From the NCBI RefSeq assembly GCF_021018745.1, contig NZ_CP063845.1:4402001-4466000 (forward strand): DNA of 64,000 bases, in the 5' to 3' direction. Source of the DNA: Gloeobacter morelensis MG652769. Its GTDB lineage: Bacteria; Cyanobacteriota; Cyanobacteriia; Gloeobacterales; Gloeobacteraceae. A program made the position numbers and the translations under genes. Of the stretch, positions 32,883 through 51,686 are shown piece by piece; position 1 is the stretch's first letter, and each line of letters starts with the position of its first letter. The notes under the pieces were generated by a model that made no database searches, was not told the origin of the DNA, and saw only the letters and a program-made list of their open reading frames with translations.

Positions 32883-34145
32883 ATGCAGAAAGTCTGGTGG
32901 CTGGCGGTGGCGCTGGCCTGCTTGGGGGGATCGGTAGGAGCCGCCGCGGCGCCCATCGGGGCCGCACCGGTGGCCGAGCGGGTGGAGGTGCCGACGTTCA
33001 TCCAGATGCGCGAGGCGAATTTGCGCTTTGGCTTCAAATTGCTCAGTCTGATCAACGAAGCGCCCCTGCGGGCGAATCGAGAGCGCTCCCCGCTGGCGGT
33101 CGAACGCAACGTACTGCTTTCGCCTCTGGGACTGGGGATCACCCTGGGCCGGTTGCTGCCCAGTTTGCCCGAGCCCGCGCAGCGGGCGGTGGCCAGTTCC
33201 CTCGAATGGCCCAACGACGGACTCATCGAACCGCAGGCGGCGACGGCGCTACTGGCTGCCCAGTTGACGGGGGCCGATCCCCAGGTACAGCCGGTACACG
33301 CCGGATTGTACTGGGTGGAGCCAGGCACGCCCGTGAAGCTGGGACGGGATCTTAGCGGCAATCGGGTGCTGGAGAGTGCCTTTGAAGGCGGGGCGGCTCC
33401 CCCCGAAATCAACCGCTGGATCGCCGCCGCCACCGGCGGCCAGATTGGCGAAGCGCTCACCCCCGGCCCCCGCCGGCCTGGTCCGCTGGTGGTGGTCGAT
33501 GCGACCGTCTTCGAAGGGATCTGGAGCCGGGCTTTCGACCCCCAAAGCAGCCTCCAGGCTCCTTTTACCCGCTTGGACGGCAAGCAGACAACTGTCTGGC
33601 AGATGAGCCGGACGGGCAGTTTTCGCTACTACGAGACGCCTGGTTTTCAGGCGGTCCAGTTGCCCTTCGGCGGCGACGGCGAGTGGAGCATGGCGGTGTT
33701 TGTACCCGCCGCCGGGGTGCCTCTGCGGTCGTTTGTGCGCAACTTGAGCGACGAGAAATGGCGGCTGTGGTTCGAGCAATTTCGGATGCGCGACGGTAGC
33801 GTCACCCTGCCCCGCCTGCGCCTGCGCTACGGCCAGGATTTGCGCCGGGTGCTTCGAGCCCTCGGGATGCGGCCCGCCTTTACCCGCTCGGAGGGCGAGG
33901 AGAGCCTGGATGCAGCGGGGTTGCTCATCGACGCGGTCGATCAGCGGACCGCTTTTACGGTCTCGGAAACAGGGATCACCCGCCCGACTGCTGCCGCGGG
34001 CAGCGAGCGGTTCGTGCTGCCCCTGCGTCCGGGCGAGGCCCCCTTTACCTTCAGCGCCGATCGGCCGTTTATGTTCGCCGTGGTGAACACTTACTCCGGC
34101 TTCGTAGCGATGCTGGGCACCGTCATCGATCCGACCCAGCCCTGA
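32883..34145 (+). CDS. exported serpin-family protein
   Basis: The protein has 420 residues with a signal peptide (LAVALACLGGSVGAAAA). Serpin features are NVLLSPLGLGITLGRLLPSL near the start, VVVDATVFEGIWSRAFDP, a late block DRPFMFAVVNTYSGFVAMLGTVIDP and a candidate reactive loop around AFTVSETGITRPTAAAGSE. Inhibitory serpins usually have an E-x-G-T-E-A-A-A hinge; this one is less regular, so inhibition is likely but not certain. Its place behind an HtrA-type serine protease suggests it controls that protease, or that both act in the periplasm. Confidence 0.85.
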   Translation: MQKVWWLAVALACLGGSVGAAAAPIGAAPVAERVEVPTFIQMREANLRFGFKLLSLINEAPLRANRERSPLAVERNVLLSPLGLGITLGRLLPSLPEPAQRAVASSLEWPNDGLIEPQAATALLAAQLTGADPQVQPVHAGLYWVEPGTPVKLGRDLSGNRVLESAFEGGAAPPEINRWIAAATGGQIGEALTPGPRRPGPLVVVDATVFEGIWSRAFDPQSSLQAPFTRLDGKQTTVWQMSRTGSFRYYETPGFQAVQLPFGGDGEWSMAVFVPAAGVPLRSFVRNLSDEKWRLWFEQFRMRDGSVTLPRLRLRYGQDLRRVLRALGMRPAFTRSEGEESLDAAGLLIDAVDQRTAFTVSETGITRPTAAAGSERFVLPLRPGEAPFTFSADRPFMFAVVNTYSGFVAMLGTVIDPTQP

Positions 34146-36384: not shown

Positions 36385-36416
36385 TTCCCGGGTTTTTCAC
36401 CTTTGTTGCTTAGCTT
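36385..36416 (+). promoter_or_regulatory. bipartite promoter-like motif, copy 2 (pseudo-phosphorylase gene)
   Basis: The sequence is TTCCCGGGTTTTTCAC (36385-36400), ten bases, then TAGCTT (36411-36416). Transcription about seven bases on would give a leader of about 43 bases before the ATG at 36466. Confidence 0.65.
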
Positions 36417-36465: not shown

Positions 36466-38994
36466 ATGCAACCGCCTCCTACCCAAACACCGCCGGACAT
36501 GCCGCTGGAGGAGCCGAGTGCCGCCCCCAGCGCCGAGGCTTTGCGCCAGGCCATCGTCGATAACCTCCGCTATGTTCTGGGCAAAGATCCCTCCCAGGCC
36601 GGCGCCCAGGATTTTTTGGCCGCCCTCGCCCATACCGTGCGCGAGCCGCTGTTGCATCGCTGGCGCAATACCCGCCAGACTTATTTCGATTGCGGAGCGC
36701 GGGTGGTATGTTATTTGGCCTCGCAATACCGCCCGGGACCGCAACTGGTAGCCAATTTGGTGAGCGCAGGTCTCTACGCGCGCTCCGTTGAAGCGCTCGC
36801 CGGGCTCGGTGTGCATCTGGAGGATCTGCTGGCGCTGGAGCGCGAGCCGCAGCTGGGGCGGCGGGAGGGTTCGCGGCAGGCAGCGAGCCTTGCCGAGGCG
36901 CTCGCCACCCAGCAAATGCCCGCGATTGGCTACGGCCTGCGCTACGAATTCGGCTCAGAGCAGGTGATCCGCGATGGCTGGCCCTTCGAGCGCTCCGTCC
37001 CCTGGCGCTGCTCAGGCGACCCCTGGGAGATCCCCCGGCCTGAGTACCGGGTGGAAGTTCCCCTGGGTGGGCGGACCGAGGCCTATATCGACGGCGAGAA
37101 CCGCTACCGGGTGCGCTGGCTGCCCGAATGCACGGTGACGGGCGAACCTTACGACCGGCTGGTACCCGGCTACCGCACCCACACCGTCAACACCTTGCGC
37201 CTCTGGAGCGCCCGGGCCAGCGAGCAGTTCGATTCGCCGGTGGCCGATTCGGAAGCGTACGCCCGCGCCATCGAAGCAAAACTCGACTGCGAGCTGATCA
37301 CCCGGGTACCCTACCCGGTGGGAGACAGTCCCCACCAGCAGCGGCTACGCCTGCAACAGCAGTACCTGCTCGCCTGCTGCTCTGTACACGACATGGTGCG
37401 GCTTTTTGCCCAGACGGGCCGACCGATCGGCGAGCTGCCCGAGCGCGCGGCCATCCACATCGACGACTCCCACCCGCCCATCGCCATTGCCGAATGGATG
37501 CGGATCCTGCTCGATCGCCACGACCTGGGGTGGGAAGCAGCCTGGGAGATGACCGGCCGGATGTTCTCGGCCACCGCCCATACTTGGGCGGCGGTGGAGA
37601 CGCTTGAGTGTTGGCCGGTGGCGCTGCTGGAGCGCTGGTTGCCCCGGCACCTGGAGATTTTGCGCGAGATCGACCGCCGATTTCGCCTGCAGTTGCAAGC
37701 ACAGCTGCTGGGCGAAGCACAGATTGCCCGCCTGGCGCTTTTTGAAGGCGATCGGGTGCGTCTGGCCCACCTGGCCTGCATAGCCTGCCACACGGTCGTC
37801 GGCACCTCCGAGAGCGCCACCGGGCGGCTGGTGCACAGCGTACTTGCCGATTTTTACCGGCTCTGGCCGCAAAAATTCCAGACCATCGGCGCGGGCGTCT
37901 CGACCCGGCGCTGGTTGGTGCTGGCCAATCCGCCCCTCGCCCGGCTCATCGGCGAGCGGATCGGCCCCGACTGGCTGACGCACCCTGAGGGGCTCGACGC
38001 CCTGCGCCGGCACGCCGCCGACCCGGACTTTCAACAGAGCTGGCGACAAATCAAGCAGGCCCACAAGCGCTCCCTTGCCGCTCAACTGCTCGCCGCCGGC
38101 GGTGTCGCCCTCTCCCCGCAGGCCCTTTTCGACATTCGGCTCGAACCGTTCGAGGGGTGTCGCCGACAGTTGCTCAGCGCGCTGTACATCGTTACCCTTT
38201 TCAATCGCCTCCAGGCCGAACCTGGGGTCGATATCGTCCCGCGCGCGTTCATCTTTTCAGGATGGCCCCGGCCCGGCGATCCGATCGGCGGCCTGACCAT
38301 CAAACTCATCCACGCCGTCGGCGCGGTCGTCAACGCCGATCCGGTCGTCGCCGGGCGACTGCGGGTGGTCTTCGTGCCCGAACCGACCGTCGTCCTGACC
38401 CAAAAAATCTTCGCCGCGGCGGATCTAGCCGAGCAGGACGCCCTGCCGGGCTTTCAGGCCGGCGACACCAGCAGCCTGTGCGCAGCCCTCAACGGCGCCC
38501 TGCTGTTGGGCAGCCCCGATGGGATCAACCTCGAAATCGAACGAATTGTCGGCCGCGAGCGCTTCTTCGAGTTCGGTCTGAGTACCGGCGAGGGTCAAGC
38601 GCTCAAACTCACCGAGTATCACCCGATGGCTTTCTACCACAGCAACCCGCTCCTGCGGCAGGTAGTCGATCAGATTGCCACCGGCTACTTCAGCCACGGC
38701 GACAGCGAACAGTTCAAACCGATTGTCGCAGCCCTGGTAGAGGATGACGAAGCGCTGAATCTGGTCGATTACCAGTCCTATATCGACGGTCAAGGGAGCG
38801 TCGATGCCGCCTACCGCGACCCGGCTCTGTGGACACAACTCTCCATCGAGAGCGTCAGCCGCCTCGGAGCCGTCTCCAGTGACCGGACGGCGCGGGAGTA
38901 CTGCAACCGCATCTGGCGGCTGCAACCGGTCACAGTCCACCTCGATGCCTACACTCAGCAGGTGATCGCCCTCAAGGGGCGCGAGCACCTCTAA
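36466..38994 (+). CDS. glycogen-phosphorylase-like protein (GT35) lacking catalytic residues
   Basis: The protein has 842 residues from ATG 36466 and is homologous along its whole length to the genuine GlgP encoded at 45651-48221 (for example MPAIGYGLRYEFG, DPWEIPRPEYRVEV, VPGYRTHTVNTLRLWSARA). The active site is gone. The PLP lysine of EASGTGNMKF is replaced in GDTSSLCAALNGALLLG (about residue 671). The phosphate-binding G-K-A-A-P-G-Y-x-x-A-K reads GWPRPGDPIGG, the R-I-H-E-Y-K-R segment reads PFEGCRRQ, and GNGGLGRLA is lost. The fold is kept, so I infer a non-enzymatic role, perhaps glucan binding or regulating GlgP. The gene is preceded by motif copy 2. Confidence 0.9.
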   Translation: MQPPPTQTPPDMPLEEPSAAPSAEALRQAIVDNLRYVLGKDPSQAGAQDFLAALAHTVREPLLHRWRNTRQTYFDCGARVVCYLASQYRPGPQLVANLVSAGLYARSVEALAGLGVHLEDLLALEREPQLGRREGSRQAASLAEALATQQMPAIGYGLRYEFGSEQVIRDGWPFERSVPWRCSGDPWEIPRPEYRVEVPLGGRTEAYIDGENRYRVRWLPECTVTGEPYDRLVPGYRTHTVNTLRLWSARASEQFDSPVADSEAYARAIEAKLDCELITRVPYPVGDSPHQQRLRLQQQYLLACCSVHDMVRLFAQTGRPIGELPERAAIHIDDSHPPIAIAEWMRILLDRHDLGWEAAWEMTGRMFSATAHTWAAVETLECWPVALLERWLPRHLEILREIDRRFRLQLQAQLLGEAQIARLALFEGDRVRLAHLACIACHTVVGTSESATGRLVHSVLADFYRLWPQKFQTIGAGVSTRRWLVLANPPLARLIGERIGPDWLTHPEGLDALRRHAADPDFQQSWRQIKQAHKRSLAAQLLAAGGVALSPQALFDIRLEPFEGCRRQLLSALYIVTLFNRLQAEPGVDIVPRAFIFSGWPRPGDPIGGLTIKLIHAVGAVVNADPVVAGRLRVVFVPEPTVVLTQKIFAAADLAEQDALPGFQAGDTSSLCAALNGALLLGSPDGINLEIERIVGRERFFEFGLSTGEGQALKLTEYHPMAFYHSNPLLRQVVDQIATGYFSHGDSEQFKPIVAALVEDDEALNLVDYQSYIDGQGSVDAAYRDPALWTQLSIESVSRLGAVSSDRTAREYCNRIWRLQPVTVHLDAYTQQVIALKGREHL

Positions 38995-39346: not shown

Positions 39347-39715
39347 ATGAACAAAATCGAAGCGATCATCCAACCTTCCAGGCTCGATGCCGTCGAGCAG
39401 GCCCTGGTGGCCATCGGTGTGCAGGGCATGACCGTCAGCCGGGTCGAAGGCTTCGGCCGGCAGCGCGGCCATTCGGTGATCTTTCGGGGATTCGGGAGCG
39501 CCGCGCAGTTTCTTGCCAAGCTCAAACTCGAAATCGTCGTACCTGATGAATTGACCGAAACAGTTGTCGAGCGGATCGTACAGGCGGCGCGCACCGGCAG
39601 CATCGGCGACGGCAAAATCTTTGTGCTGCCTGTCACCCAGGCGGTGCGGGTGCGCACCGGCGAGTGCGGCCTGGAGGCGGTCCGCTTCGAGAGTCCGGCT
39701 GTCCTGATTCACTGA
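39347..39715 (+). CDS. PII-family signalling protein with altered T-loop
   Basis: The protein has 122 residues from ATG 39347. The PII fold is clear: MNKIEAIIQPSRLDAVEQAL, VQGMTVSRVEGFGRQRGH, the B-loop TGSIGDGKIFVLPV and the C-loop RVRTGECGLEA, which together form the ATP/2-oxoglutarate site. The T-loop differs: GlnB has R-G-x-E-Y-x-V-x-F with the Tyr (or cyanobacterial Ser) that is modified; here it reads RGFGSAAQF, with neither the Tyr nor the usual Ser. It is thus probably a PII paralogue that senses ATP/ADP without covalent modification. The target is unknown. Confidence 0.9.
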   Translation: MNKIEAIIQPSRLDAVEQALVAIGVQGMTVSRVEGFGRQRGHSVIFRGFGSAAQFLAKLKLEIVVPDELTETVVERIVQAARTGSIGDGKIFVLPVTQAVRVRTGECGLEAVRFESPAVLIH

Positions 39716-39750
39716 GCGCCCGGCCCAAAAACGCGCGGAGGAAGCGCACC

Positions 39751-41322
39751 ATGCTCTCTACTCAGTATCAGGCGACCCGCCATCCGAGCGAGAGCGCGTC
39801 GCTCCCGGCGTTTCTCGCGGCGATGGCCCGGCCGGAATTTTATCCCCATCCTGTGGAGACGGTCACAATCGTCCAGACCCACATTTCCTATGTCGTGCTG
39901 GCGGGGGTGTACGCCTATAAGTTCAAAAAATCGGTGCACCTCGGCTTTATCGACTACGCCACCCTCGAGCAGCGCCGTCGCTACTGCTATGAAGAACTAC
40001 GCCTCAACCGCCGCTTCGCTCCGGGGCTCTATCTCGATGTGGTCGCGATCGTCGCGGTGGAGGGGGGAGGCTACCGGCTGGCTGAAGCCGAGGCGGTGGG
40101 TGCGCTTGAATATTGCGTGCGGATGCGCCGCTTCGAGGAAGAGCAGCTGTGGAGTCGCCTGGTGCCTCGGGACGCCCTGAATCCGGGTGCAATCGAGCAA
40201 CTGGCCGGACGCCTCGCGCACTTCCACGCCGGGGCAGCCATCCGGAAGCCTCCCCTCGCATGGATCCGCGAGGCGATCGAAGGCACATTTTCCCAGGCGC
40301 TGCCCTATGCGGCCCGCCTGGGTCTGGAACTGCCCTTCGCTGAGATCCGCCGCTTCAACGAAGCGTTTCTGGCCACCCAGGCCCCCTTGCTCGCCGAGCG
40401 CCGCGAGCGGGGCCGCGTGCGCGAGTGCCATGGAGATCTGCACCTGGGCAACATCGTGCAAATGAATGGCGAGCCGCTGATGTTCGACGGTATTGAATTT
40501 AGCGACCGCCTGCGCACCACCGATGTGATGGCCGAGGTTGCCTTTCTGGTCATGGACCTCGAGGCCCACGGCCGATTTGACCACGCCAACCGGCTACTGA
40601 ACAGCTACCTCGCAGCGAGCGGCGACTGGGAGGGAGTGGCTGTGCTGCCGCTGTATCTTTGCTACCGCGCTTGCGTGCGCGGCTGGGTGCACGCCCGGCG
40701 CTCAGACCAACCGGATCTCGACCCTGCAGAGCAACAAGAAGCCCTGGCTGTGGCGCGCGGTTATTTCGAGCTGGCCTGGCGCTATACCCGGCCCGCGCCG
40801 CCGCGGCTCTGGATGATGCATGGGCTTTCCGGTTCGGGCAAAAGCACTGTCGCGCGCGATCTGAGCCTGGTGCAAGGGGCCATCCACCTGCCTTCAGATG
40901 CGGTGCGCAAGCACCTGGCCGGCCTCGCCCCGGCCGAACACGCCCCGGCTCCGGCTGGAGGCGGGCTCTACAGCCGGCAGATGAGCGAGCGCACCTACAC
41001 CCGGCTTGTGCAGCTGGCGGAAATTTGCCTGAAGGCCGGTTTTGCTGTGGTTCTCGATGCGCGCTATCCCCGGCGCCAGCAGCGCCGTCAGGTGCGCGCC
41101 CTGGCGGATCGGCTAGGGGCCCCGCTCACCTTGCTGGTCTGCCTGTGCCCCTGGCCGCTGCTCAAGCAGCGCCTCGAGGGCCGCACCGCCGATCTCAGCG
41201 ATGCCACCCCGGCGCTGCTCGACTGGCAGTTGGCCGAGACCGAACCGCCCGCAGGTGATGAGCTTGGCTACACCCGCTATCTCGATACCACCGGGCCGGG
41301 CCGGGCCCTGGCGTCACTTTGA
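39751..41322 (+). CDS. APH-fold kinase fused to a P-loop kinase/ATPase domain
   Basis: The protein has 523 residues from ATG 39751 (GGAGGAAG upstream). The N-terminal APH-like domain (residues 1-345) has the catalytic loop ECHGDLHLGNIVQM and MFDGIEFSDRLRTTD. The C-terminal domain (about 350-523) has a Walker A GLSGSGKSTVARDLS and a kinase-like Asp (VVLDARYPRRQQ). The same APH/P-loop fusion occurs in mycobacterial Rv2004c of the DosR dormancy regulon, next to a universal stress protein, which is also the neighbour here. Substrates are unknown. Confidence 0.88.
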   Translation: MLSTQYQATRHPSESASLPAFLAAMARPEFYPHPVETVTIVQTHISYVVLAGVYAYKFKKSVHLGFIDYATLEQRRRYCYEELRLNRRFAPGLYLDVVAIVAVEGGGYRLAEAEAVGALEYCVRMRRFEEEQLWSRLVPRDALNPGAIEQLAGRLAHFHAGAAIRKPPLAWIREAIEGTFSQALPYAARLGLELPFAEIRRFNEAFLATQAPLLAERRERGRVRECHGDLHLGNIVQMNGEPLMFDGIEFSDRLRTTDVMAEVAFLVMDLEAHGRFDHANRLLNSYLAASGDWEGVAVLPLYLCYRACVRGWVHARRSDQPDLDPAEQQEALAVARGYFELAWRYTRPAPPRLWMMHGLSGSGKSTVARDLSLVQGAIHLPSDAVRKHLAGLAPAEHAPAPAGGGLYSRQMSERTYTRLVQLAEICLKAGFAVVLDARYPRRQQRRQVRALADRLGAPLTLLVCLCPWPLLKQRLEGRTADLSDATPALLDWQLAETEPPAGDELGYTRYLDTTGPGRALASL

Positions 41323-41366
41323 AACCCGCCGCCCACATCGACAACCCAACATTCGTGGAGGGCACC

Positions 41367-41921
41367 ATGTTCACAAAAATCCTCGTCGCCCTAGATCAGT
41401 CTGCCAGCAACGAACTGGTCTTCGCGAAAGCCTTGGCCCTCGCCCGCCTCGGCGGCGGATCGCTGATGCTGATGCACGTGCTGTCGGGGGACGAAGACAA
41501 CAGCCCCGGCCTGGTCGTTCCGGCGATCACCGACTTCCACCCGCTCAGTTTCGACGAGCAGACCCTGGCGTTTTATCGCCGGGAGTGGGAGCGCTACGAG
41601 CAGTTGGGGCGGGCGATGCTCCAGATGTTTGCCGAGCGGGCCGCCGCCGTCGGGGTGATTGCCGAATTTAGCCAGAGCGCCGGCAGCCCCGGCCCGCAGA
41701 TCTGCCAGTTGGCCCGCGCCTGGAGCGCCGATTTGATCGTCACCGGGCGGCGGGGACGGCGCGGCATCAGCGAGATGCTTCTAGGCAGCATCAGCAACTA
41801 CGTCCTGCACCACGCCCCCTGCTCGGTGCTGGTGGTTACCGGCGAAGCGGACGAGGGCGAACCGTTGCCTATTGAGGCCGGTCTGCAGAAGCCTGCCACT
41901 CGTCGGGGGCGAGCGCCCTGA
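41367..41921 (+). CDS. universal stress protein (UspA family)
   Basis: The protein has 184 residues from ATG 41367 (GTGGAGGGC upstream). The Usp fold shows MFTKILVALDQSASNELVF at the start and the ATP-binding motif TGRRGRRGISEMLLGSISNYVLHHAPCSVLVV near the C terminus (G-x2-G-x9-G-S/T type). It should bind ATP and is presumably induced by stress or energy limitation. It is the last gene of the cluster, 44 bases after the APH kinase, and overlaps the 3' end of bolA on the opposite strand. Confidence 0.92.
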   Translation: MFTKILVALDQSASNELVFAKALALARLGGGSLMLMHVLSGDEDNSPGLVVPAITDFHPLSFDEQTLAFYRREWERYEQLGRAMLQMFAERAAAVGVIAEFSQSAGSPGPQICQLARAWSADLIVTGRRGRRGISEMLLGSISNYVLHHAPCSVLVVTGEADEGEPLPIEAGLQKPATRRGRAP

Positions 41922-42159: not shown

Positions 42160-42527
42160 GGGTGTCACTGTCCTGCAACTTTGTGATAGGGCCCCGTCGG
42201 ATGGGCTGCTCGAATCGTCATGCCCTGCCGGGTTTGCGCAACGGTCCTATGCTAGCTGTCCGGCGCCCGGGGGCAGATCCCTAACTTCGGCCGGAAGGTT
42301 AGAATGTAGAAATAATTGTTTACTCAAGCGTCTATTCACCTGGATGTAGCAGGATGCCCGGGGCGTTGTGCCTGCAGCCGTCGCCACTTAAAGGTTTGTC
42401 TACAGCAACTATTAAGCGTCCACCGGGCGCCCTTTGTGCGGATGTCGAGTCGGCGATTGGCTTGTCGGCCGGCTCTGTGGCATCTGTGTATGCAAGCAAC
42501 CTACCGCCAGAATTGAGGAACCTTCCC
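42160..42527. other. divergent intergenic region, bolA / hypothetical gene
   Basis: About 370 bases. At 42215-42250 there is CCGGGTTTGCGCAA followed by TATGCTAGC, a weak look-alike of the bipartite motif found at 36094, 36385 and 39274. I do not count it as a true copy. No gene is supported. Confidence 0.35.
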
Positions 42528-45650: not shown

Positions 45651-48221
<2,571 letters not shown>

Positions 48222-48405
48222 CTTTTGGGCCTCAATGTCGAACGGGCTGCGGCGGGACGCAACCTGCTTCGAGTGTAGGGCAACAGCCGAGGGGCAGTGC
48301 GCCTGTGGATCCCAGCACCAAGGTTCAGGCAAGGGGAGCTTGAAGAGAGTGCTCAGAAAAGCTATGGTCTGCTCAAATCCGGCTGTTCTCGTTCTGGGAA
48401 AATCA

Positions 48406-49053
48406 ATGACGGCTACCGTGGCGCCCGTCGCGGGCGAACAGCGCATCTTGTTGCACAACGTCAGCTGGCGGCTGTTCGAGTCGCTGCTTGAAGAACTGGG
48501 TGACAACCGCTCGATACGCCTGAGCTATACCCGAGGGACGCTGGAAATCATGTCGCCGCTGATGGCTCACGAAAACAGCAAACGCCTCCTCGAAAAATTC
48601 ATCGACATCCTGGTGGAAGAGTTGGATCTGAATGTCAAAAGTTCCGGTTCGATGACCTGCAAGCGCGCCGATCTAGAGCAGGGAGCCGAGCCGGATAGTG
48701 GCTTCTACATCGCCAACGAGCCCCGGGTGCGCAGCAAATCGAGAATCGAACTTCCCCTGGATCCGCCGCCGGACCTGGTTGTTGAAGTCGAGTATTCTCG
48801 CTCGGCTGTCGATAAATTGAAACTCTACGCGGCGATGGGAGTCCCCGAATTTTGGCGCTACGACGGCGAAAACCTGCGCATCTTCCGGTTGACAGCGGGC
48901 GAATATGCCCTTGTCGAGAACAGCCCCACCTTTGCACCGATACCCACCTGCGAGATCCCGCGCTTTTTGGCGTTGAGCCCCCAAAGCGGCGAAACCGCAG
49001 CGGTCCGCTCCTTCCGTGACTGGGTTCGGCAAATGAAAATGCGCAGGATTTAA
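48406..49053 (+). CDS. Uma2-family endonuclease-like protein
   Basis: The protein has 215 residues from ATG 48406. It shows the Uma2 (DUF820) pattern of restriction-like PD-(D/E)xK proteins that are extremely common in cyanobacteria: EIMSPLMAHENSKRLLEKFI, EPDSGFYIANE, PPPDLVVEVEYSRSAVDKLKLYAAMGVPEFW. The D of PDLVVEVE and the E's are the likely catalytic acids. The cellular role is unknown. It starts about 180 bases from the divergent glgP. Confidence 0.9.
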   Translation: MTATVAPVAGEQRILLHNVSWRLFESLLEELGDNRSIRLSYTRGTLEIMSPLMAHENSKRLLEKFIDILVEELDLNVKSSGSMTCKRADLEQGAEPDSGFYIANEPRVRSKSRIELPLDPPPDLVVEVEYSRSAVDKLKLYAAMGVPEFWRYDGENLRIFRLTAGEYALVENSPTFAPIPTCEIPRFLALSPQSGETAAVRSFRDWVRQMKMRRI

Positions 49054-49874
49054 GCGACGGTCATAATTTCCACGCCCATCTCAGTGACGAGCACCGTGTG
49101 CTCCCACTGGGCAGAGAGCTTGCGGTCTTTGGTGAATACTGTCCAGCCGTCGGGGGCAATTTCGATTTCCGGCCGGCCTTCGTTGAGCATCGGCTCGACG
49201 GTAAAGGCCATGCCGGGCCGTAACTTTGGGCCGCTCCCGCAGACGCCGAAATGCGGAATGGGCGGCTCGGCGTGAATTACTTTGCCGATGCCGTGGCCGA
49301 CCATTTCTCGCACCACCGCATAGCCGTTGGCCTCTGCCAGTGCCCAGATGGCGGCACCGATATCGCCCACGCGCCCGCCCGGTGCAATGGCGGCGATCCC
49401 CGCCATCATGCATGCTCGGGTCACCTCGACCAGCCTGCTGGCCTTGGGAGATACTTCGCCGACCATAAACGTCTTTGAGGTGTCGCCGTGGTAGCCATCC
49501 AGAAGCAACGTCACATCGATATTGACGATGTCACCGTCGTGGAGTGTACGTCTGCGATCTGGGATGCCATGGCAGACCACCTCGTTGATGCTCGTGCAGA
49601 TCGAAGCAGGAAAAGGTGTGTGGCCGGGTGGGGTGTAACCCAGCTGGGCGCTGGTCGCCCCGTGGGCCTGCGTCCAACGCTCCGCCTCGTCGTTGATGGC
49701 CCGGGTGTGCATCCCAGGGCGCACCATCGGCTCCAAGTGGGCCAACAGCTGGGCTGCAAGCCGCCCGGCCCGGCGCATCTGCACTATTTCGCGCCCGGAG
49801 AGCAGGACGATCCCCCGATGGGGATTGGGGCGCAACCATTCCCCAATAGACGGGCAAGAGCCTTTGCCGTTCAC
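49050..49874 (-). CDS. map: type I methionine aminopeptidase
   Basis: The protein has 274 residues from GTG (complement 49872-49874), with GGAGG about eight bases upstream. It removes the initiator methionine. Metal ligands are visible: D in DIVNIDVTLLLDGYHGDTSKTF, H in EMVGHGIGKVIHAEP, E in FTVEPMLNEG and E in QWEHTVLVTE. A short N-terminal extension (NGKGSCPSIGEWLRPNP) is unlike the minimal E. coli enzyme. A perfect palindrome lies 22 bases upstream of the start. Confidence 0.95.
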   Translation of the reverse strand: MNGKGSCPSIGEWLRPNPHRGIVLLSGREIVQMRRAGRLAAQLLAHLEPMVRPGMHTRAINDEAERWTQAHGATSAQLGYTPPGHTPFPASICTSINEVVCHGIPDRRRTLHDGDIVNIDVTLLLDGYHGDTSKTFMVGEVSPKASRLVEVTRACMMAGIAAIAPGGRVGDIGAAIWALAEANGYAVVREMVGHGIGKVIHAEPPIPHFGVCGSGPKLRPGMAFTVEPMLNEGRPEIEIAPDGWTVFTKDRKLSAQWEHTVLVTEMGVEIMTVA

Positions 49875-49895
49875 GATGGGCACCTCCGCTGAGAT

Positions 49896-49928
49896 TGCTA
49901 TGCTTTGCTGGCACAGCAAAGCATAGCA
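49896..49928. promoter_or_regulatory. perfect palindrome between map and an RHH gene
   Basis: Fifteen-base arms TGCTATGCTTTGCTG and CAGCAAAGCATAGCA surround a GCA centre without any mismatch. It lies in the divergent control region, 22 bases from the map start and 62 bases from the RHH start. It could be an operator, or a hairpin in the map leader. Confidence 0.6.
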
Positions 49929-49989
49929 CGTCGTGTGCTGTGGTGATCCGTACAATAGGTGCAAAGGCAAGTGACTAGCGGACGGCGGC

Positions 49990-50202
49990 ATGGGCGGCAA
50001 GACCGATCTCGACAGGGTGGTGGCCTACGTACCCACCGAGTTGAAAAAAGAACTGGAGCAGTGGGCGGAGGCGGAGGAGCGCTCGGTCTCCTGGCTGGTC
50101 GCCAAGCTCATCGACAGAGCCCTGCAGCAGCGCCGGGAGCGCGACACGCCGGGTGAGGACGGGTTTTTGCTGGCCTTTGCCAATATCGAGAAGACCGGGT
50201 AA
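49990..50202 (+). CDS. CopG/ribbon-helix-helix DNA-binding protein
   Basis: The protein has 70 residues. It reads VVAYVPTELKKELEQWAEAEE followed by RSVSWLVAKLIDRALQQR, the strand-helix-helix pattern of RHH regulators. No toxin gene follows; the next 420 bases hold a repeat. It may be a solitary regulator, possibly of itself and map through the palindrome at 49896-49928. Confidence 0.8.
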   Translation: MGGKTDLDRVVAYVPTELKKELEQWAEAEERSVSWLVAKLIDRALQQRRERDTPGEDGFLLAFANIEKTG

Positions 50203-50622
50203 AGTCGCCCACAGACTCCTATCGAATCCGGGTGAAGGGGTGTGGTTCTCATCGGATACTGCCCTTGTGGCCGTTTTTTCATTGGGTCTTGGGGGATTCG
50301 CTTGGCCCGACAGCGGGTGGGCGAGAGGCGGCACCCCCTTCGGGTGCCCCTCTCGCGCTCTCCCCCTCCCCGCCTCGCGGGGGTGCCACCCCCCCGACAC
50401 CCCCCGGACTGGATGGCGCGGTAGGCGGGAGACTTTGTGGGTGGGATGGGCAGAGCTTTCCAGTGCGTGCACGCTTTGCGTGGCGACTGCGCCGAGATGG
50501 CTGGTAATGTCGCTGGGCAATTCCATGTCTATCCACGCGGATTCGATAGGACAAGGGCTCCAAGCCGTCAACTTGAAGCCCTTGTGCCGGGCATAGTTTG
50601 AGCGGCAGTTTCAGCCTTCATG
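50203..50622. other. gene-free stretch containing dispersed repeat copy B
   Basis: The only recognisable content is the GC-rich repeat described separately. The open frames crossing it on both strands are products of its low-complexity composition. Confidence 0.6.
50327..50518. repeat. dispersed GC-rich repeat, copy B
   Basis: Near-identical in its left 95 bases to 42894-43095 and weaker in the rest. It begins at GTGGGCGAGAGGCGG and contains a short hairpin CGGCACCCCCTTCGGGTGCC. No ORF of its own. Confidence 0.75.
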
Positions 50623-51255
50623 TTAGAAAAAGACAAACTCATTCAATAGCTCAGCAAGCACACTCTGGTGCTGCCAACCTCTGGAAATATTCAAGTCGAG
50701 AGAACCTTGCTGATTGCGTACCCAATGCAAGATGGTGGAGCGATCCACAAAAGATTCCGGGGGTGTGCGACGCTCAACGGCAAGCTTCGCTCTGGCTGAA
50801 CCCTCCAGGTATGGCACCGGTTTGCGTGTCCCAAGCGGCGAGAAACCGATTTCCTGAAGACGTTGCCCAAGAAGAGCGGTATCTGTGTGCTCGGTTCGAA
50901 GCCAGGTATCATAATTGGCCGCAAGCAATCTTTGCGGTCGATTTTCGCAGGGCTTCATCGCGCTGATAATTGTATAGCGCTTAAAGATTCCGCAGATCAA
51001 ATCGGTCTGATTGTATTTGATCGATATTCCCCACAGATCGCCGATTAAGTCGTAGCAGCCGTTCTCATTGGGGAGGAATCCCAGGTCGTAATTGCCGTTC
51101 AACACACAGACCACTTCGGCATGGGCACGCTGGCCTTCGTATCCCCGCACGTAGGCATGCTTGCCAGTCAGAACCTCAAAGCCCATATCCTGAAAAGTTG
51201 CGGCGATGAGCTTCCCATCTGTGAGTGTGGTCCTGAGTGTGCTGAAGTGACCCAT
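50623..51255 (-). CDS. DUF1257/Ycf35-like protein with C-terminal extension
   Basis: The protein has 210 residues. The first 110 (MGHFSTLRTTLTDGKLIAAT, then HAYVRGYEGQRAHAEVVCVL, YDLGFLPNENGCYDLIGD) match the DUF1257 family, known in plastids as Ycf35. Typical members have about 120-130 residues. The second half here (about residues 115-210) is extra, with no family that I recognise. Function is unknown. Confidence 0.8.
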   Translation of the reverse strand: MGHFSTLRTTLTDGKLIAATFQDMGFEVLTGKHAYVRGYEGQRAHAEVVCVLNGNYDLGFLPNENGCYDLIGDLWGISIKYNQTDLICGIFKRYTIISAMKPCENRPQRLLAANYDTWLRTEHTDTALLGQRLQEIGFSPLGTRKPVPYLEGSARAKLAVERRTPPESFVDRSTILHWVRNQQGSLDLNISRGWQHQSVLAELLNEFVFF

Positions 51256-51366
51256 CGCAGCTCCTGACGCAAAGGGGCGTGTGCTTCTGTTGTAGCACTT
51301 GCAATTAACTAAAATCGCATTGACGCTTCCTCTCGCCCTGCAGGGTTTTCTGGTGTTGCAAGCTCG

Positions 51367-51525
51367 TTACCCCATATCTTCAACGGCTGCGGCAAACCCC
51401 TCCTCGACGCGGCTGAGATCCGGTGCGACAAGATAGCGTGTTCCGGTGAGCAACTGGGTGGCTTGCTCGGAACCGTGCTCCTGCAAAGACGATCTCGCTA
51501 CGACACTGGCATCGACGACGATCAT
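51367..51525 (-). pseudogene. truncated VapC-like PIN toxin with antitoxin tail
   Basis: The 52-residue frame begins MIVVDASVVARSSLQEHGSE and continues QATQLLTGTRYLVAPDLSRV before a stop. This is the first third of a PIN toxin; the rest is missing. Its ATG overlaps the TGA of an upstream frame ending AVLISEEREERG, the tail of a FitA/VapB-like antitoxin whose start is also gone. It is therefore a decayed toxin-antitoxin locus. Confidence 0.65.
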
Positions 51526-51686
51526 CCGCGCTCCTCGCGCTCCTCGCTGATGAGCACCGCGCTGTCGCTAGCTGTGCCGTACGGTCGGCTGGGTGATGAG
51601 CACAAAAATACGAACGTTCGTGCTATTATGGATGCACAGAAGCTGGCCGACCCAGAAACTTTTTTTTCGCGATTGAGGCAGCACGC

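Follow-up and report, generated by a model that had tools for sequence, protein, structure and literature searches.

A full-length GT35 phosphorylase paralogue in Gloeobacter with its active and PLP sites replaced, predicted to be catalytically dead

Glycogen phosphorylase is among the best-known PLP enzymes, and phosphorolysis by the known mechanism of its family, GT35, needs both the PLP lysine and the phosphate-binding residues. Here we describe a GT35 protein from Gloeobacter, a cyanobacterial genus without thylakoids, that has lost both. The described proteins closest to it are the GT35 phosphorylases themselves (PF00343, TIGR02093; cyanobacterial GlgP2 type), which it resembles in full-length homology, about 45% identity and predicted fold. 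Unlike these enzymes, it is a predicted dead paralogue in which the PLP lysine, the phosphate site, the glycine loop and most sugar contacts are replaced.

Inactive relatives of alpha-glucan-degrading enzymes have been described in plant starch metabolism. The plant beta-amylases BAM4 and BAM9 lack a catalytic residue and associate with starch or with a partner, and starch accumulates when they are lost; their role in starch breakdown is proposed, whereas that of the isoamylase subunit ISA2, which forms a heterocomplex with ISA1 and raises ISA1 activity, has been shown (PMC12892837). Like the Gloeobacter protein, BAM4, BAM9 and ISA2 are paralogues of alpha-glucan-degrading enzymes, but their folds and families are unrelated to the dead GT35 protein, for which a comparable role is proposed. 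Our searches of the open-access literature turned up no account of a dead GT35 homologue. A retained dead copy would offer a test of non-catalytic regulators in bacterial glycogen breakdown, as in starch breakdown.

The window analyzed here is a 64,000-nucleotide stretch of the 4.92 Mb contig of the G. morelensis genome (5.10 Mb in total), and the paralogue of 842 residues is encoded at positions 36466–38994 on the forward strand. Its reading frame opens at a TTG at 36403; the ATG at 36466 is the better start because the frame of the orthologue in G001 (a one-contig genome that we take to be Gloeobacter violaceus PCC 7421) extends only about 17 codons further upstream and a GAGG lies 9 nt 5' of this ATG. 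The protein covers positions 2–712 of the 713-position Pfam profile PF00343 with 775 bits (cut-off 27, E = 9e-233) and reaches 710 bits against TIGR02093 (curated cut-off 553), which places it in GT35 by descent and bears out the full-length homology and length claimed in the sequence-only reading that preceded this work. It is 44–47% identical to the nearest active cyanobacterial phosphorylases. Since its score exceeds the cut-off of TIGR02093 (NCBIfam), it would be given a phosphorylase name, an annotation trap.

We aligned the protein with 57 active members of GT35, among them rabbit muscle phosphorylase, whose residue numbering is used throughout. All four motifs that the sequence-only reading had named as altered are indeed replaced. 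The glycine loop GNGGLGRLAA has become GRREGSRQAA (36856–36885, forward strand as for the other motifs; N133R, G134R, G135E, L136G), KRIHEYKR has become EPFEGCRR (38143–38166; K568E, R569P, H571E, Y573C, K574R), GGKAAPGYxMAK has become SGWPRPGDPIGG (38257–38292; K608W, Y613D, K617G) and EASGTGNMKF has become QAGDTSSLCA (38455–38484; E672Q, G675D), where S674 and N678 are likewise replaced. The lysine that binds PLP in GT35 enzymes, K680, is a cysteine (codon 38479–38481) in all three orthologues, and the phosphate site and glycine loop of a GT35 enzyme are disrupted by G134R, G135E, K568E, R569P and K574R. Outside the four motifs, N484A and N376A are further losses and D283 is also gone; D339, H341, H377, E385, Q665 and T676 are retained. 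Because the PLP lysine and the phosphate-binding residues are gone, the protein is not expected to carry out glucan phosphorolysis in the way known for GT35 and, judged from these residues, cannot be expected to hold PLP as a Schiff base. When the key catalytic residues were checked in every aligned row, the only other sequence to lack one was the GT35 domain of locus L078 (genome G031), discussed below.

Residue loss in the paralogue is concentrated at the active site beyond chance. Overall, 127 of 207 near-invariant GT35 positions (61%) survive; the active site keeps 9 of 27 and the rest of the protein 118 of 180 (Fisher p = 0.002). For positions conserved within the GlgP2 clade the corresponding counts are 43/113 (38%) and 260/441 (59%), with p = 8e-5.

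A structural model built from a 34-sequence alignment has a pLDDT of 82.6 and a pTM of 0.84; an earlier model from four sequences was set aside (pLDDT 46). The predicted structure superposes on the cyanobacterial phosphorylase 9wvu with Z 52.8 and rmsd 2.0 over 807 residues, and on solved phosphorylases generally with Z 51–53, so that by prediction the protein has the GT-B phosphorylase fold. The alignment includes active phosphorylases and the fold is therefore partly imposed, making the model a statement of fold compatibility and not an independent test. Its least confident internal stretches are 254–260, 375–379 and 660–666; in the alignment, the latter two correspond to loops of the former active site, one following H377 and the other preceding E672. 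The sequence-only reading had suggested a glucan sensor or a GlgP partner as examples of a possible role. Segments of the dimer interface, as generally described for the rabbit enzyme, are kept at 54% against 60% in the rest (p = 0.43), which does not support special conservation of the interface and offers no backing for a heterodimer. The counterpart of the mammalian glycogen-storage site, delimited in the same way, is rather poorly kept (46%).

Two same-genus relatives carry the gene. The G001 orthologue is 92% identical and has every one of N133R, G135E, N484A, K568E, R569P, H571E, Y573C, K574R, K608W, Y613D, E672Q, G675D and K680C; that of G002, the Aphanocapsa lilacina HA4352-LM1 MAG, is 95% identical and has those that fall outside a deletion of its own. 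This deletion removes about 297 bp (99 codons) in frame, corresponding to 38000–38296 on the forward strand, from the C-terminal domain, and the contig contains no N. The gene is absent from G003, probably G. kilaueensis. Among 390 cyanobacterial genomes no other relative exceeds 47% identity, and those of the aligned sequences that were inspected carry the usual catalytic residues; a protein scan of genome contigs matched only the A. lilacina MAG and one distant active phosphorylase, and a plasmid search with the paralogue returned short partial matches only.

In G. morelensis and G001 the frame is full length, with no stop or frameshift. The dN/dS ratio is 0.23–0.29 in codon alignments and 0.23–0.38 in tblastn alignments, where the upper value belongs to G002 and may take in misaligned residues next to the deletion. 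In the tblastn alignments it departs from neutrality with p = 4e-20 (G. morelensis–G001) and 7.5e-6. These ratios are about two to three times those of the active paralogues (0.08–0.10 for GlgP1, 0.13–0.14 for GlgP2 for the close pair). Neighboring genes range from 0.08 to 0.38, so that the dead gene, while not neutral, ranks with the less constrained of ordinary genes. The protein accordingly has the marks of a pseudoenzyme, an enzyme homologue whose catalytic residues are lost and which selection keeps as a protein. The G002 MAG is without 99 codons of this gene and without the adjacent glgP2, which suggests that the protein may be dispensable or decaying.

All three trees place the dead sequences on the GlgP2-type side (SH-aLRT 99–100 for the enclosing group). 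Their stem measures 2.3–3.3 changes per site, an absolute length that depends on the model, and the crown path of the dead clade is short, 0.10–0.11 compared with 0.06 for GlgP2. Grouping the clade with Gloeobacter GlgP2 and G005 gave p = 0.75 in the AU test and scored above the free search; grouping it with Gloeobacter GlgP2 alone was not rejected (p = 0.09). The place within the GlgP2 group is unsure because of these AU results, the very long stem and an unusual composition. Descent from GlgP1 was disfavored, short of rejection (AU p = 0.054). Most likely, the paralogue derives from a GlgP2-type phosphorylase in the Gloeobacter lineage. Rapid change that later gave way to constraint is in keeping with a shift in function.

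An intact glgP, reported by the sequence-only reading for the same window, is present at 45651–48506 on the reverse strand. It encodes a GlgP2-type glycogen phosphorylase (PF00343, 1110 bits) with normal catalytic residues and motifs; these coordinates are the longest open frame, and the true start is probably nearer 48260. GlgP2 lies downstream of the dead gene on the opposite strand, at 6.7 kb in G. morelensis and about 4.3 kb in G001, and this linkage is not an operon. In G003, GlgP2 adjoins the conserved ORF found at 42354 in the window, and neither the dead gene nor the PII variant nor Usp was found in the surrounding 19 kb. The dead gene is full length in G. morelensis and G001, which have both GlgP1 and GlgP2; in G002, glgP2 is cut to a 24-codon remnant and the dead gene is the shortened form, and in G003 a single canonical GlgP is found and the dead gene is absent. 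That full-length dead copies occur only alongside both GlgP1 and GlgP2 is suggestive only, the comparison covering four related genomes that include one MAG. The segment missing from G002 corresponds to window positions 45724–51665 (compare L051), with approximately the last 24 codons of glgP2 remaining. On the other side of the dead gene, a serpin gene (32883–34145) adjoins genes for an HtrA-like protease and two SPFH/Band 7 proteins, a group that G002 shares at 98–99% identity; the 5.4 kb that precede the dead gene in G001 do not match it.

Taken together, these observations confirm by alignment a full-length GT35 paralogue with its active and PLP sites destroyed, and part of the earlier proposal that it is retained for a non-catalytic use holds: the protein is predicted to be dead and is kept as a protein, as seen from the shared substitutions, the dN/dS well below 1 and the conserved positions. 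Retention is not universal, given G003 and the A. lilacina MAG. Our leading reading, to which we give even odds (probability about 0.5), is a GT35 pseudoenzyme derived from a GlgP2-type enzyme that now serves as a non-catalytic glucan-binding protein, a phosphorylase partner, or both. A copy of a GlgP2-type phosphorylase would have stopped binding PLP and phosphate and ceased to be catalytic, evolved rapidly, and come under renewed constraint afterwards. The folded protein may bind alpha-glucan chains in the old cleft, which retains D339, H341, H377 and E385 on the side of the N-domain; it may also, or instead, associate with active GlgP2 or GlgP1 and so tune glycogen breakdown. We propose such a non-catalytic role because of the precedent of inactive BAM4, BAM9 and ISA2 in starch metabolism, and it would be the most economical reading.

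Alternatively, the gene could be a relaxed relic, with a past non-catalytic role or none, that is now decaying and whose frame persists for lack of time. The raised dN/dS relative to the active paralogues, the deletion through the C-terminal domain in G002 and the absence from G003 are what decay would produce, but a dN/dS far under 1, two intact frames despite a stem of two to three changes per site and the survival of 61% of the near-invariant positions argue against it, and we regard it as unlikely, though to be taken seriously. Neither an error in sequencing or assembly nor misalignment of an active enzyme can account for the observation: separately assembled genomes carry the same substitutions, and the alignment is unambiguous. 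New PLP-independent chemistry on an alpha-glucan or other glycoside in a remodelled cleft would be consistent with the retention of D339, H341, H377, E385 and T676 and with replaced residues that are nearly all identical between G. morelensis and G001; yet the substrate contacts N484, H571, E672, S674 and G675 are gone as well and no new catalytic motif is recognizable, which makes it improbable.

The neighbors of the gene raise a further alternative. The next gene downstream (39347–39715, forward strand) encodes a PII-family paralogue with an altered T-loop (RGSEYTVEF to RGFGSAAQF, without Tyr51), found at the same place and on the same strand in all three genomes with the dead phosphorylase, and it is followed by a gene for a universal stress protein, Usp (41364–41921, forward strand), which adjoins the PII paralogue in G001 and is the next gene after it in G002. 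The protein might therefore signal together with the PII variant and Usp, as a glucan or nucleotide sensor with output to the PII paralogue, and not act on phosphorylase. The order dead phosphorylase–PII variant–Usp, common to the three genomes save for one extra gene before Usp in G. morelensis, favors this, as does the PII form itself, which is 95–97% conserved in the two relatives and absent from G003, where the best match is 54%. Against it, some 350 bp separate the dead gene from the PII gene, co-occurrence in three close relatives is weak evidence, and the paper titles and abstracts retrieved mention no known PII–phosphorylase contact; we find this account doubtful, a little more so than decay. 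The extra gene, APH-like with AAA_33 (39664–41322), separates the PII paralogue from Usp in G. morelensis alone, and the segment 39834–41291 has no match at the corresponding place in G001 or G002.

Loss of GT35 catalysis is not confined to Gloeobacter. The GT35 domain of L078 in G031 carries N133R, H341D, K568N, R569E, Y573H, G675A and K680I, and a class-wide search of 390 genomes found about 14 related GT35 matches, most of them in frames of 1147–1623 residues, two of the set being cut by a contig end. Eleven further readable relatives all lack K680, K568 and H341, the last being Asp (a twelfth, L187, was left out of the residue count); the substitutions in these fused domains are H341D, K680I/M and K568M/I/N. 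The fusion at L165:3262–7737 (reverse strand) illustrates the type, also represented by L175 and L176–L186: a PBP_like_2 domain, a hydrophobic segment and a C-terminal GT35 domain. PBP_like_2 is N-terminal in the five fusions scanned, with TPRs ahead of GT35 in two. A hydrophobic segment precedes GT35 in the nine fusions checked, none of which passes the standard 19-residue hydropathy cut-off, and from the sequence the fusions are putatively transmembrane. PBP_like_2 paralogues in which DUF4912 domains take the place of GT35 were also observed near the fusions in four of the loci checked: L165:3–2375, L180:1–1695 and L184:2–2236 on the reverse strand and L181:8188–10500 on the forward strand.

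The fused domains resemble the Gloeobacter protein in being GT35 without the PLP lysine. They differ from it in GlgP1-side ancestry, branching inside that side of the tree, in their other substitutions and in their fusion to PBP and a hydrophobic segment. A single origin of the two was not preferred and not rejected (AU p = 0.16). The fused lineage is probably independent of the Gloeobacter one, and GT35 catalysis appears to have been lost more than once in cyanobacteria. More tentatively, and with less than even odds, cyanobacteria may on two or more occasions have made phosphorylase serve as a glucan sensor or regulator without catalysis, free-standing beside a PII variant in Gloeobacter and C-terminal in putatively transmembrane PBP fusions elsewhere. 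Outside the window, G. morelensis also encodes a distant GT35 protein of 671 residues (G000:C1:4579957–4581339; 64 bits to PF00343), which has counterparts in all four Gloeobacter genomes.
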